Origin: Phycisphaerae bacterium
GTDB taxonomy: Bacteria > Planctomycetota > Phycisphaerae > UBA1845 > UTPLA1
NCBI GenBank assembly: GCA_016935885.1
Contig: JAFGQA010000433.1
Coordinates: forward strand, 1-8,990
Length of the DNA: 8,990 bases
Direction of reading: 5' to 3'
Positions 3,404 through 7,771 of this stretch are shown here, piece by piece. A program made the translations under genes and the position numbers. Under the pieces are notes generated by a model. It searched no databases and had not been told where the DNA came from. It saw only the letters and a list, made by a program, of their open reading frames with translations. Position 1 is the first letter of the stretch; every line of letters starts with the position of its first letter.

Positions 3404-3476
3404 CCCCACCACGTGAGGGCTCGGCCTCGCGGGAGGGGACGTTGCCTGCTCCCGTGATCTCTCAGGCCGTGAACTC

Positions 3477-4241
3477 GTGGACCCTAATCCCTTGAATCCT
3501 CGAATCCCCCCAGCCTCGCATCCTTCGACCCTCGAATCGCTCAGCGCCCGGCGCCGGCGCGCCGCCGCCATCTGCAAAGCCCTGCACAAACTCTATGCTG
3601 ACGCGGATACTGCCCTGCGGCATCGCTCCCCGCTGGAACTCCTCGTTTCCACCATCCTCTCCGCCCAATGCACCGACGAGCGCGTCAACAGGGTCACGCC
3701 GTCGGTCTTCAAACGCTACAAGAGCGCTCGCGACTTCGCCGGGGCAGACCCGGCCGATCTCGAGGAGCTGATCCGATCCACGGGTTTCTTCCGCAACAAG
3801 ACCAAGAACATCATCGGCGCCGGTCGGGTCATCACCGACCGGTTCAACGGCCGCGTCCCCGACACGATGGAAGAACTGCTCGAAGTGCCCGGCGTATCCC
3901 GCAAAACCGCCAACGTCGTCCTCGGCACCTGGTTCAAGAAGAACGTGGGCTTCGTCGTCGACACGCACGTTGGCAGGCTCGCCCACCGTCTCGGGCTCTC
4001 GTGGCGATCCCGCAACAACAAGGATGCCGTCAAGATCGAGAAAGACCTCATGGAGGTCTTTCCCCAAAGGGAATGGACCTACCTCGGCCACGCCCTGATC
4101 TGGCACGGCCGCAAGGTCTGCCCCTCCCGCAAGCCAGATTGTGAGCGATGCACTCTCTCGAAGTGGTGCCCCTCGGCCTTCTCCTTCGACGCCAACCCGG
4201 CCGCGGCCCGACCACAACGCAAGCGAAAGAAACGCACGTGA
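3477..4241 (+). CDS. nth: Endonuclease III (DNA glycosylase/AP lyase)
   Basis: This base-excision repair enzyme removes oxidised pyrimidines and cleaves the abasic site by beta-elimination. The 254 residues contain the helix-hairpin-helix VPGVSRKTANVVL (137-149) with catalytic lysine K143, and VDTHVGRLAHR (161-171) with catalytic aspartate D162. The Fe-S cluster loop has the standard C-x6-C-x2-C-x5-C spacing (C215, C222, C225, C231). LSAQCTDERV (61-70) is also typical of the family. It is about 40 residues longer than E. coli Nth. The excess is an N-terminal Pro/Ser-rich stretch (3-20), encoded by a degenerate AATCCTCG repeat, and a basic tail ending RKRKKRT that could add DNA affinity. The GTG at 3477 is the first usable start after an in-frame stop at 3414. 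TTG at 3492 is the only other common start before the conserved domain, and neither has a good ribosome-binding site. Confidence 0.93.
   Translation: MDPNPLNPRIPPASHPSTLESLSARRRRAAAICKALHKLYADADTALRHRSPLELLVSTILSAQCTDERVNRVTPSVFKRYKSARDFAGADPADLEELIRSTGFFRNKTKNIIGAGRVITDRFNGRVPDTMEELLEVPGVSRKTANVVLGTWFKKNVGFVVDTHVGRLAHRLGLSWRSRNNKDAVKIEKDLMEVFPQREWTYLGHALIWHGRKVCPSRKPDCERCTLSKWCPSAFSFDANPAAARPQRKRKKRT
3486..3539 (+). repeat. Degenerate AATCCTCG repeat, 5' copy
   Basis: Imperfect units of about 8 bp related to AATCCTCG (AATCCCTTG, AATCCTCG, AATCCCCC, CATCCTTCG, ACCCTCG, AATCGCTC) run through the first codons of nth. They encode its Pro/Ser-rich N-terminal residues. A similar block lies just downstream of nth. 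Confidence 0.5.
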
Positions 4242-4263
4242 ACCGGCGGCGCGTCGGGCGTGT

Positions 4264-4310
4264 GAATCCTGCGACCTTCCGATTCCTACATCCTCGAATC
4301 CCTCAATCCT
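4264..4310 (+). repeat. Degenerate AATCCTCG repeat, 3' copy
   Basis: GAATCCTGCGACC, GATTCCTAC, ATCCTCGA, ATCCCTCA and ATCCTATG follow one another in the same orientation and with about the same period as the block at 3486-3539. The two blocks bracket nth. Confidence 0.45.
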
Positions 4311-4553: not shown

Positions 4554-6716
4554 ATGCAGTCCGTGCTGATCGAGATCTGGCGGATTCTGAATGAGTCGGC
4601 GATCTACTTGCTGTTCGGGTTCGCCCTGGCCGGCTTCCTACACGTTGCGCTGAGGCGCACGCCGAGATTCACGAATCTGCTGGCCGCCAGGGGCGGTAGA
4701 TCTGTCGTCCTGGCCGCCCTGCTCGGTGTTCCCCTGCCTCTGTGTTCGTGCAGCGTACTCCCAGCGGGACTGACGCTCCGCAAGAAGGGAGCGAGCAAAG
4801 GCGCAACGGTGTCGTTCCTGATCTCCGTACCGGAAACGGACATCGTCTCCATCCTGCTCACCTACGGTCTGCTTGGCCCGGTGATGGCTGTCTTTCGGCC
4901 GCTTGCCGCGATCGTGACCGCCATCGTCTCCGGGCAACTCACAAACTTGGTGGATCGCTGGACCGACGCCGGCAGCCAAGCCAACGCGGAGGAGGAATCC
5001 TGCGCCTGCAAAGAGGAAGACGACGAGGGATACGTCGCCGAGAAGGGGCCGATCTGGAACGCGCTGCACTACGGGTTCGTTCGATTCTTCGGCGACATCA
5101 TCGGCTCATTGCTTCTTGGTCTCATCATCGGCGGGCTGATCACCGCATTCCTGCCTCGCTTTGGACTTGAAGATCTCGTGGGGGCGTCGTCCATTCTCAC
5201 CATGTTGGCGATGCTCGTCGTCGGCATTCCGATGTACGTGTGCGCCACCGCATCGACGCCGATCGCCGCGGGCCTCATCGCCAGCGGGCTGAGCCCCGGC
5301 GCCGCATTGGTCTTCCTGTTGGCCGGGCCGGCCACCAACATCGGCAGCCTCCTCGTCCTGGGCAAGCATCTGGGCCGGGCCGTTCTGATAACGTACCTCT
5401 GCTCGATCGCGGTGATCAGCGTCTTGATGGGTCTATGGCTCGACGCCGCCTTTGATGCCGCCTCGATTTCGCTGCCGGCCATCGTCGCTGCCACCGGTGA
5501 GACGCCGTTTTCGCCTGTCAAGACCGCCGGGGCGATCCTACTGCTCGTGCTGGCGTACATGAGTCTCCGCCGCACCGGCGCATTTGAAGGGCTTCTAGGG
5601 CGCATCAACCGCGCGCTCGGCCTCGAACTCAAGCCACGGCGGGTCAAGCTCGCCGCCGTCGTCTTCCTCCTGATCGCGTACGCATGCAGCAGCCTGTTCG
5701 TGGTCCGGCCGGGTGAGCGGGCCGTCGTCACGCGCTTCGGCCGCATCACGCAGGCGAACCTGTTGCCCGGCCTACACTGCCGCTGGCCTTACCCGATCGG
5801 CCGGACGGACATCGAGTCCGTGACCAGGATCAAGCGGATCGAACTGGGGTACCGCCGGTCGCCGAAAGCGACCGATGACGACGCGGCGGCGCTCGCCGGC
5901 CAGGAGGGCTTGACCGCCGAGTCCTGGATGCTGACCGGCCACGAGGACATCATCGACATCACGTGGGTCGTGCAATACCGGGTGATGGATTCCGAGGATG
6001 GAAAGGAGTTGGAGAAGTATCTCTACGGCCTTGCGGATCGGGAAGCGCTGGTTCGTTCGGCGGCGGACTCGGCGATTCGGGTCGCAGTGGGCAATCGGGG
6101 CATCGACAAGCTGCTGACGACGGCTCGGGGCGAGGTCGAGGACGCGGTCAGGGGGTCCCTCCAGGCCTCGCTCGACGAATGCGACGCCGGGATTGGCATC
6201 GTTCACGTGGGGTTGATCAGCGTGCACGCACCGGAGGAAGTCCACTGGGCGTTCCGCGACCTTGCCAGCGCCAGCGAGGACAGGATGAAGAAGATCAACG
6301 AGGCCGAGGAGTACAAAGAGCGCGTGGTACCCGAGGCGGAGGGGGGCAGGCGAAAGCGCGTTCTGGCTGCCGAGGGCACTGCGACGCAGCTCGTTCGGCA
6401 CGCGATCGGAGAGAGCAGCGCTTTTATGGCCAGGCTGACCGCATACCGAGAACGAAACCCAGCCGTCACAAGGCTCCGATTGTACTTCGAGTCGATGGAC
6501 GCGGTTTTACCGAGTCTGAAGAAGTATGTCTGCCTGTCCAAGGCGGTCAGCGAGGGAATCGACCTGTGGTTGATTAAGGGGGATGTAGGCGTCTCTGATC
6601 TCAAGGAGGACAGAGGCCTCGCCAACCCCGCCGGCCTCCCCGATCTACCGATGTTTCTGCCCGCGACAAAGGAGTCACGCAGCCGCCGCGACGACTTCTG
6701 GAGACCTGCACAGTGA
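4554..6716 (+). CDS. Metal-type permease fused to HflK-like SPFH protein
   Basis: A 720-residue membrane protein in two parts. Residues 1-340 resemble the PF03773 permease family (ArsP and SO_0444-type Cu/Zn efflux proteins). They have about eight to ten hydrophobic segments, the PLCSCSVLP motif (62-70), PETDIVSILLTYG (93-105), MYVCATASTP (227-236) and LAGPATNIGS (256-265). The loop between halves is acidic and holds a second Cys pair, CAC (150-152). After a short basic linker, residues 364-384 form a new membrane anchor. The rest, to about 675, is HflK-like: VVRPGERAVVTRFGRI (383-398), WPYPIGR (411-417), MLTGHEDI (459-466), VVQYRV (472-477), HAPEEV (558-563), a coiled coil near 575-630 and LYFESMDAVLP (643-653). 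The reading frame is continuous. ATG follows AAAGG by 5 nt, and the stop overlaps the next start as GTGA. The inferred role is exporting a metal or metalloid from within an SPFH membrane assembly. The substrate is unknown. Confidence 0.87.
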   Translation: MQSVLIEIWRILNESAIYLLFGFALAGFLHVALRRTPRFTNLLAARGGRSVVLAALLGVPLPLCSCSVLPAGLTLRKKGASKGATVSFLISVPETDIVSILLTYGLLGPVMAVFRPLAAIVTAIVSGQLTNLVDRWTDAGSQANAEEESCACKEEDDEGYVAEKGPIWNALHYGFVRFFGDIIGSLLLGLIIGGLITAFLPRFGLEDLVGASSILTMLAMLVVGIPMYVCATASTPIAAGLIASGLSPGAALVFLLAGPATNIGSLLVLGKHLGRAVLITYLCSIAVISVLMGLWLDAAFDAASISLPAIVAATGETPFSPVKTAGAILLLVLAYMSLRRTGAFEGLLGRINRALGLELKPRRVKLAAVVFLLIAYACSSLFVVRPGERAVVTRFGRITQANLLPGLHCRWPYPIGRTDIESVTRIKRIELGYRRSPKATDDDAAALAGQEGLTAESWMLTGHEDIIDITWVVQYRVMDSEDGKELEKYLYGLADREALVRSAADSAIRVAVGNRGIDKLLTTARGEVEDAVRGSLQASLDECDAGIGIVHVGLISVHAPEEVHWAFRDLASASEDRMKKINEAEEYKERVVPEAEGGRRKRVLAAEGTATQLVRHAIGESSAFMARLTAYRERNPAVTRLRLYFESMDAVLPSLKKYVCLSKAVSEGIDLWLIKGDVGVSDLKEDRGLANPAGLPDLPMFLPATKESRSRRDDFWRPAQ

Positions 6717-7771
6717 AATCCATCATTTGGATGCTGATTCTCGGCCTCGTTGTGCTGACCGCCTGGTCGGTGTTTTTCGCCGTACACGAGACGCAATACG
6801 CCGTGGTCACGCGCTTCGGCGACCCTTACCGGACGATTAAGGAGCCTGGCCTGCGGGTCAAGTGGCCCTGGCCCATCGACAACGTGGTCTACTTTGACAA
6901 GCGTCTACTCGTCTCGGACACGCCCCGACCCGACGAGCCACCCAGGGAGTTCCTCACCAAGGACAAGAAGAACATCGAGGTCGCAAGTTATACGTGCTGG
7001 AAGATCACGGATCCCAAGGTGTTCCTGGAGAGGATCGGCACGCGTCGCGAGGATGCGGAGGCGCGCCTGGGTGAGATCGTGATCTCGGAATTGGGCAAGG
7101 TGCTGGGATGCTACGAACTGACGGACCTGCTTTCAACGGAGCCCGGCAAGATGAAGCTGCCGCAGATCATGGGGGAGATCCGCGAGACCTGCCGCGAGCT
7201 GGTGAAGGACAAGGACAAGTACGATTACGGCGTCGAGATCATCGATTTCCAAATCAAGCGGGTCAACTTCCCCAAACAGAACCGCACCAGCGTGTTCGAG
7301 CGGATGAGGGCCGAGCGGAAACGGATGGCGACCCAATACCGCAGCGACGGTGACAAGGAGGCCACGATCATCCGCGCCGAGGCCAACAAGGAGAGCACGA
7401 CGATCCTTGCAGACGCCTACCGACAAGCCCAGGAGACCGAAGGCAAGGCGGACGCCGAGGCGACGCGGATCTACGCGGATGCCTACGGGCAGGATGCCGA
7501 GTTCTACGAGTTCCTGCGCACGCTGGAGTCCTACGAGAAATCACTGACGCAAGGCACGACCGTCTTCTTGCCCAGCGATTCACCGTACCTGAAATGGCTG
7601 CGATCCGACGCCTCGGTGGCGAGCCACGGGCCTCAGTCCGTGCCGCCTGGACAGAACCCGACGAGCCCAACGCAAGTGGAACCGGTCTGGAGGGACGGCG
7701 AGCAGGAAACGCCAGCGGAGTCAACGCACGATCGCTCGGAAGCGGAGGCTGATGATGACCCCAGCCGGTAA
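6713..7771 (+). CDS. hflC: HflC-like SPFH-domain membrane protein
   Basis: A 352-residue protein with one N-terminal membrane segment (4-23) and a large outer SPFH domain. In the known complex, HflC alternates with HflK in a cage around the membrane protease FtsH and restrains it. HflC-specific signs are TQYAVVTRFGDP (27-38), PGLRVKWPWPIDNV (45-58), VFERMRAERKRMATQYRSDG (194-213), an Ala/Glu-rich coiled coil rich in KE-A repeats (214-258), DAEFYEFLRTLESYEKSL (261-278) and VFLPSDSPYLKWL (284-296). Residues 297-352 form a Pro/Asp/Glu-rich disordered tail that ordinary HflC lacks. Part of it is encoded by DNA shared with the next gene. The GTG start at 6713 overlaps the preceding stop by 4 bp, with GGAG at 6701-6704, so translation is probably coupled. 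An accessory paralogue is possible, since a main hflC may exist elsewhere. Confidence 0.9.
   Translation: MKSIIWMLILGLVVLTAWSVFFAVHETQYAVVTRFGDPYRTIKEPGLRVKWPWPIDNVVYFDKRLLVSDTPRPDEPPREFLTKDKKNIEVASYTCWKITDPKVFLERIGTRREDAEARLGEIVISELGKVLGCYELTDLLSTEPGKMKLPQIMGEIRETCRELVKDKDKYDYGVEIIDFQIKRVNFPKQNRTSVFERMRAERKRMATQYRSDGDKEATIIRAEANKESTTILADAYRQAQETEGKADAEATRIYADAYGQDAEFYEFLRTLESYEKSLTQGTTVFLPSDSPYLKWLRSDASVASHGPQSVPPGQNPTSPTQVEPVWRDGEQETPAESTHDRSEAEADDDPSR

Follow-up and report, generated by a model that had tools for sequence, protein, structure and literature searches.

The window analyzed here, i.e., the whole stretch of 8,990 nucleotides from a Phycisphaerae bacterium, contains on its forward strand three successive genes encoding SPFH proteins, the first of which is fused to a metal-type permease (Table 1). 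This fusion gene (K') is a single ATG-started frame of 720 amino acids without any internal stop. The start of the following gene, coding for an HflC-type subunit, shares 4 bases with the end of K', and the third gene, coding for a second HflK-type subunit (K3), likewise shares its first 20 bases with the end of the HflC-type gene. The genes located upstream (nth, an APH-family gene, S-methyl-5'-thioadenosine phosphorylase, and pgpA) show no evident link to K'. Short repeats of the tcgaatcc type were seen by eye between genes at positions 3470-3540 and 4262-4310.

Table 1. Features of the window and further transporter-HflK fusion genes (positions without a locus prefix refer to the window).
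Feature	Location	Strand	Basis or remark
SO_0444 permease-HflK fusion gene (K')	4554..6716	+	Pfam and NCBIfam matches
SO_0444-type Cu/Zn permease domain, residues 8-335	4575..5558	+	NF033936, PF03773
Cys-Ser-Cys motif, residues 64-66, candidate metal ligands	4743..4751	+	invariant in 99 aligned fusions
Linker, residues 339-365, net charge +6	5568..5648	+	alignment
HflK membrane anchor, residues 366-384	5649..5705	+	separate hydropathy peak; helix 361-378 in model
HflK-type SPFH region, residues 382-661	5697..6536	+	TIGR01933; Foldseek
Region of the R193-equivalent arginine site	5700-6536		
HflC-type subunit, 352 aa, GTG start	6713..7771	+	TIGR01932, 206.6 bits vs cut-off 134.4
Second HflK-type subunit (K3), 319 aa	7752..8711	+	TIGR01933, 241.4 bits vs cut-off 159.4
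CDF-HflK fusion	L092:4023-5588		PF01545 then PF01145; TIGR01297 above cut-off
CDF-HflK fusion	L093:3971-5731		PF01545 then PF01145; TIGR01297 above cut-off
CDF-HflK fusion	L158:3309-4856		plasmid of Aquibium oceanicum, typed conjugative; heads SPFH triplet
Heavy-metal P-type ATPase-HflK fusion	L094:5228-8209		PF00122, PF00702, PF01145; TIGR01525 above cut-off
Different P-type ATPase-HflK fusion, 1154 aa	L125:2372-5836		

The original prediction, made from the sequence alone, had described one uninterrupted frame joining a PF03773/SO_0444-like permease (residues 1-340) to an HflK-type SPFH protein with its own membrane anchor from residue 364 onward, and had proposed a Pfam search as a check. 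This search returned the two domains in the expected order, PF03773 at residues 12-294 (E 7.4e-45) and the SPFH domain PF01145 at residues 383-586 (E 2.1e-17). Within NCBIfam, the permease half matched the SO_0444 Cu/Zn transporter family NF033936 with 329.0 bits, thereby passing the curated equivalog cut-off of 300, while the HflK half matched TIGR01933 (hflK) with 187.2 bits versus a cut-off of 159.4. K' thus shows the membrane anchor followed by an SPFH domain that marks the HflK family. An AlphaFold2 model of the single chain reached a mean pLDDT of 84.5 and a pTM of 0.69. Its top Foldseek matches were chains of E. coli HflK/C structures (7vhq_E and 9paw_XA are HflK chains), followed by stomatin, prohibitin, and erlin. 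Domain searches, model, and fold matches consequently agree with the predicted covalent tie between the permease and an HflK-type subunit.

The invariant permease residues of the aligned fusions include Cys64, Ser65, Cys66, Pro93, Glu94, and Cys230 (window numbering). A Cys-x-Cys motif near the N-terminus is found in 119 of the best 120 database hits listed, the sole exception being truncated there, and by its conservation Cys64-Ser65-Cys66 is a candidate set of metal ligands. A review lists an SO_0444 family protein in a selenocysteine version (UxC; PMC13188914), which presumably corresponds to this motif. The linker carries a positive net charge in 99/99 aligned proteins and therefore, following the positive-inside rule, is probably cytosolic, which would place the SPFH part in the periplasm, as in E. 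coli HflK.

Conservation of the fusion and of its operon

As the window represents one single contig, a sequencing or assembly error joining two genes had to be considered, and a hidden stop or frameshift at 5575-5645 had been feared in particular. The linker encoded there is co-linear in 99 aligned proteins (the window protein and 98 of the 119 other database hits), with the junction between the last permease helix and the beginning of the SPFH part, residues 338-386 of the window protein, having a length of 49 in 95 of them. Such co-linear fusions occur in other assemblies from other sources, with names among the hits including Planctomycetota, Phycisphaerae, Latescibacterota, and Krumholzibacteria. 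We therefore count the artefact as refuted and give it practically no credence. Both Pfam domains are present in 119 of the best 120 hits listed, the window's own protein included (P0085 has PF03773 only), a rate biased by the preference of this list for proteins alike over their full length. In parallel, no SPFH gene was found beside unfused SO_0444 permeases in 17 loci examined 0.6-1.5 kb to either side, so that no two-gene version of the fusion is seen there. The SO_0444 permease-HflK fusion is thus confirmed as a real, conserved architecture.

Within the phylum of L001, at least 13 of 294 genomes carry the fusion. The gene order K'-HflC-HflK is kept in 14/14 permease-fusion loci, i.e., the window and one locus from each of 13 genomes (L001, L042-L053). 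Downstream of canonical hflK-hflC pairs of the same phylum, neither a third HflK-type gene nor an ATPase gene was found in any of the 18 pairs with sufficient room (20 pairs fetched). The two-gene hflK-hflC operon by which the HflKC-FtsH complex is recognized is therefore not what the fusion loci contain. The domains, the intact fusion, and the covalent tie of the earlier interpretation stand, to which three SPFH genes in place of the canonical pair have to be added. Over the 14 loci, permease, K', C, and K3 show correlated pairwise distances (Mantel r 0.78-0.95, p 0.0001), with shared genome ancestry contributing to these values.

SPFH proteins are known to organize membrane domains, whereas the cage proposed below is inferred by us; the fusion might accordingly do nothing else than fix the transporter in a lipid microdomain, with neither a closed cage nor a partner protease involved. 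We regard this as unlikely, since three SPFH types including an HflC partner occur together in all 14 loci and diverge in parallel, which fits a defined hetero-oligomer better than mere microdomain anchoring.

Other metal transporters in the position of the permease

A survey of HflK proteins over the 294 genomes of the phylum led to further long HflK genes in triplets, carrying CDF or heavy-metal P-type ATPase domains N-terminal to HflK (Table 1). The K'-C-K order recurs in 3/3 of these CDF or ATPase fusion loci, with the fusions of L092, L093, and L094 each being followed by C and then K3, as well as in one CDF-HflK plasmid locus (L158), near which a heavy-metal ATPase and a gene for a copper chaperone are located. 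At the different P-type ATPase-HflK fusion of L125, neither HflC nor a second HflK was found in the 6.5 kb examined. In the database, CDF and SPFH domains occur together in 120 of the best 120 hits listed (names including Hydrogenedentota, Eisenbacteria, and Desulfobacteraceae), and PF00702 together with PF01145 likewise in 120 of the best 120 listed, 112 of which also contain PF00122 (names including Planctomycetes and Thermoguttaceae); by their method, both lists favor the same architecture.

Permease, CDF, and ATPase belong to different Pfam families, and hhalign probabilities for SO_0444 versus CDF and for CDF versus ATPase were both under 1%. Among the best 120 listed in each case, the fused CDFs retain both HxxxD metal sites by which a CDF is recognized (120/120 and 119/120), and the fused ATPases retain CPC (116/120), DKTGT (116/120), and GDGxND (120/120). 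Judging from these conserved residues, the fused CDF and ATPase transporters look functional. In a careful tree, the permease-type K' form one clade (100/95) and the ATPase-type K' another (100/100), while CDF and ATPase K' group together at 83/87. Either through one fused ancestor with exchange of the transporter or through separate origins, unrelated transporters for the same kind of substrate reached one position. The permease-HflK fusion is part of a larger class of metal transporter-SPFH modules.

In a further group of 18 loci (L054 and L095-L111), the first gene encodes roughly 530-760 aa (incomplete in L110), and its N-terminal membrane domain gave no Pfam match above cut-off in the eight sequences scanned. 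One subset (deg1, 10 sequences) matches the fused CDFs with an hhalign probability of 97.4 (E 1e-11, 205 columns), and a second (deg2, 7 sequences) matches deg1 (98.8), not CDF directly (0.2); control comparisons with SO_0444, ZIP, and ATPase domains stayed under 1%. From the four CDF metal ligands, deg1 kept the first histidine in 8/10 and the other three in 0/10 sequences, compared with 119-120 of the best 120 fused CDFs listed.

The degenerate-CDF triplets are accompanied by a separate transporter gene: among the 20 loci in which all three triplet genes can be seen, 19 have a P-type ATPase gene directly after them, L054 being the one exception without an adjacent ATPase. These 20 were drawn from the 18 loci and ten more (L125-L134), all of which had been picked from the HflK list for paired matches or long frames before any look at ATPases; L128-L131 are degenerate-CDF SPFH triplets as well. 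Dropped were L097 and L127 (no third K), L125, L126, L133, and L134 (no C found), and L110 and L132, whose first gene lies outside the stretch (L132 with an ATPase, L110 with none in 1.2 kb). Three of the following ATPases were examined, and all exceeded the heavy-metal ATPase cut-off. The same succession, consisting of a long HflK, an HflC-type gene, another SPFH gene, and finally a P-type ATPase, is found on annotated plasmids of Burkholderia ubonensis, Paraburkholderia sprentiae, Rhizobium tumorigenes, and Klebsiella aerogenes; the N-terminal domains of these four long HflKs did not match the class profiles built here. No ATPase was seen downstream of the permease-fusion loci, with under 300 bases to judge in the window and L049. 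Since an ATPase gene also lies near intact CDF-HflK triplets (0.9 kb downstream in L092, and in L158), the separate ATPase cannot be explained simply as a replacement for a transporter domain that was lost.

Fusions of another kind, in which ZIP is joined in frame to an SO_0444 permease (L037:616-2583, L056:8631-10739, L057:8953-10947), were observed in addition; they combine importer-type and exporter-type domains in one chain.

Metal context, FtsH, and a proposed function

The HflK half could also serve to bring the permease to FtsH for removal or control when the metal supply changes, in which case the cage would be a quality-control chamber, as in E. coli. FtsH was found in 13/13 carrier genomes (25 matches above cut-off in 16 genomes searched), and a proteolytic role thus stays conceivable. 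For 6/13 carrier genomes, no HflK above cut-off was found outside the module, which could therefore be the only HflK-like partner of FtsH there. The other 7/13 do possess such an HflK, seen as part of ordinary hflK-hflC pairs in three of them (G046, G059, and G104), so that the module does not just represent the housekeeping complex. Of the 25 FtsH matches from the 16 genomes, none is located on a module contig, these contigs being fragments, and no FtsH match was obtained in the ATPase-HflK genome G161, which may be incomplete. Arginine R193 of E. coli HflK (numbering of L160), kept in 15/15 canonical HflK, has its equivalent in the K' of all three intact-transporter classes (permease 24/24, CDF 12/14, ATPase 9/11), compared with 0/34 in K3 and 1/17 in K' of the degenerate class. 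HflK/C are reported as FtsH partners, with an FtsH contact at "Arg191" of HflK (PMC12048511); as residue 191 is an alanine in the E. coli sequence used, we do not equate both positions. In sum, the module may have a link to FtsH, and targeting for turnover as the purpose of the fusion appears improbable to us.

In respect to genomic context, a gene for a ZIP-family zinc transporter (PF02535) lies directly upstream in 8/12 testable fusion loci (L042, L043, L044, L045, L048, L050, L052, and L053) and is absent from this place in the window, L001, L046, and L049, with L047 and L051 being excluded because of a contig edge. Beside the window fusion, neither a ZIP gene nor an ATPase nor an evident metal regulator is present, the downstream view comprising 0.3 kb. 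ZIP transporters are usually importers, and CDFs are mostly exporters.

With regard to direction, the cage could instead capture scarce Zn or Cu at the periplasmic side for import, which the adjoining ZIP genes would fit. A possible relative in Pseudomonas aeruginosa, taken here from literature descriptions, points the same way: PA2439-PA2437, of the HflK/HflC family, are clustered with hmtA (PMC4542158, PMC8531726, PMC11761036), whose product, a P-type ATPase, is described as importing Zn and Cu. Zinc depletion raises PA2437-PA2439 by 9.0 to 14.4-fold; for the cluster genes listed, increases of 5.6 to 14.4-fold are given in a znuA mutant, and the PA2439 promoter is bound by Zur together with zinc (PMC4542158, PMC8531726). 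Export may thus be the wrong direction for the class. On the other hand, one study found hmtA mRNA to be low and not repressed when zinc was added (PMC8531726). Shewanella requires SO_0444, which shares an operon with a ZntR-like regulator, to grow under Zn or Cu stress (PMC3219624), and in Nitratiruptor an SO_0444 gene is induced by Cd and Cu (PMC10092412); the export bias of CDFs can be added to this. A role in uptake or homeostasis instead of export is, in our judgment, rather unlikely, though a more serious contender than either microdomain anchoring or turnover. The PA2439-hmtA cluster accordingly supports a metal role and, at the same time, warns against assuming export. In strain PA14, the three SPFH genes PaFlo5-7 of one operon, which we suppose to be PA2439-PA2437, were among the genes studied through deletions that gave no pronounced phenotypes, and the accessible text of that paper mentions zinc once and hmtA never (PMC13086221).

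Considering all of these data, we favor, with moderate confidence, the view that the three genes encode an SPFH cage specialized for moving transition metals, one of whose subunits contains the transporter itself. By analogy with HflK and HflC of E. coli, K', the HflC-type subunit, and K3 would form a joint assembly whose membrane helices make up a ring, topped by a periplasmic dome; this picture is modeled on HflK/HflC structures and stomatin. The cytosolic N-terminus of each K' would bear an SO_0444-type permease on a short linker of fixed length. The permeases would thereby sit within the ringed membrane patch or against it, at the cytosolic end of their K' anchors and in a fixed ratio. A metal, probably of the Cu/Zn type, would cross the membrane at this patch, and the dome may restrict where it ends up or which partner proteins and lipids come into contact with the permease; confinement of the metal within the lumen is the most speculative element. 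In other modules a CDF or a heavy-metal P-type ATPase could replace the permease in K', or the ATPase could be provided as separate next gene.

In favor of the cage, we counted the curated cut-offs passed, the triplet order, the three transporter families with their kept metal sites, the ATPase following degenerate triplets, the distance correlation, the upstream ZIP, the role of SO_0444 under Cu/Zn stress, and the precedent of stomatin. Counted against it were the single-chain nature of the model, the window lacking ZIP, ATPase, and regulator, L125 lacking C and K3, the ATPase near intact CDF triplets (L092 and L158), its absence at L054, the zinc-depletion response in P. aeruginosa, and FtsH in 13/13 genomes.

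Comparison with the closest known systems places the module as follows. The N-terminus of HflK is short and cytosolic, whereas K' has a polytopic metal transporter at this place. All three SPFH proteins of the window exceed HflK/HflC family cut-offs, and the best fold matches of K' come from the E. coli HflK/HflC-FtsH complex (PDB 7wi3, 7vhq, 9cz2), which is encoded with two SPFH genes, not three. Like SO_0444 family members (NF033936), the permease half exceeds the equivalog cut-off and keeps Cys-Ser-Cys, but no joining to SPFH is described for SO_0444 in the accessible text of the respective papers (PMC3219624, PMC10092412). Human stomatin forms a dome enclosing AQP1 or UT-B (preprint from 2025, PMC12407830), so that a transporter under an SPFH dome has precedent; the likeness to the module is one by analogy, and stomatin differs in having its cargo as a protein of its own, a cytosolic dome, and water or urea as substrate. 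A precedent for covalent attachment of a transporter to SPFH was not found in the open-access literature. PA2439-PA2435 of P. aeruginosa, likened by description, also combine Zur-linked HflK/HflC-family genes with a metal P-type ATPase (HmtA), but as a separate gene, and the accessible descriptions give the SPFH proteins no transport role. SPFH-NfeD operons such as QmcA-YbbJ likewise pair an SPFH gene with a dedicated membrane partner, which differs in being NfeD, encoded by a separate gene; the terms "transporter" and "ATPase" are absent from the accessible text (PMC2636767).

The original prediction was aware of no characterized system of this kind, and a description of the metal transporter-SPFH class was likewise not found in the open-access literature. 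SPFH cages and SO_0444 transporters are known; a class of metal microcompartments would be new, if shown. With more doubt than confidence, we propose that these modules represent bacterial microcompartments for metal transport, forming a class that is widespread and as yet undescribed, i.e., three-subunit SPFH cages whose first subunit has an SO_0444 permease, a CDF, a heavy-metal P-type ATPase, or, where the ATPase is a separate protein, a vestigial CDF. The metal would pass via the caged membrane patch and the lumen on the periplasmic side and thus be kept from spreading freely in the periplasm.

The best-known content of bacterial SPFH cages is FtsH, and the class bears on what SPFH cages enclose and for what reason. 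As cage subunit and transporter share one chain, and unrelated transporters with a shared kind of substrate occupy this position, cargo and likely function become readable from sequence. The question of whether SPFH cages serve transport thereby turns into one approachable with three genes. Our findings suggest that certain bacteria use dedicated protein cages to transport metals and, furthermore, suggest a role for the zinc-responsive SPFH genes beside hmtA in P. aeruginosa.
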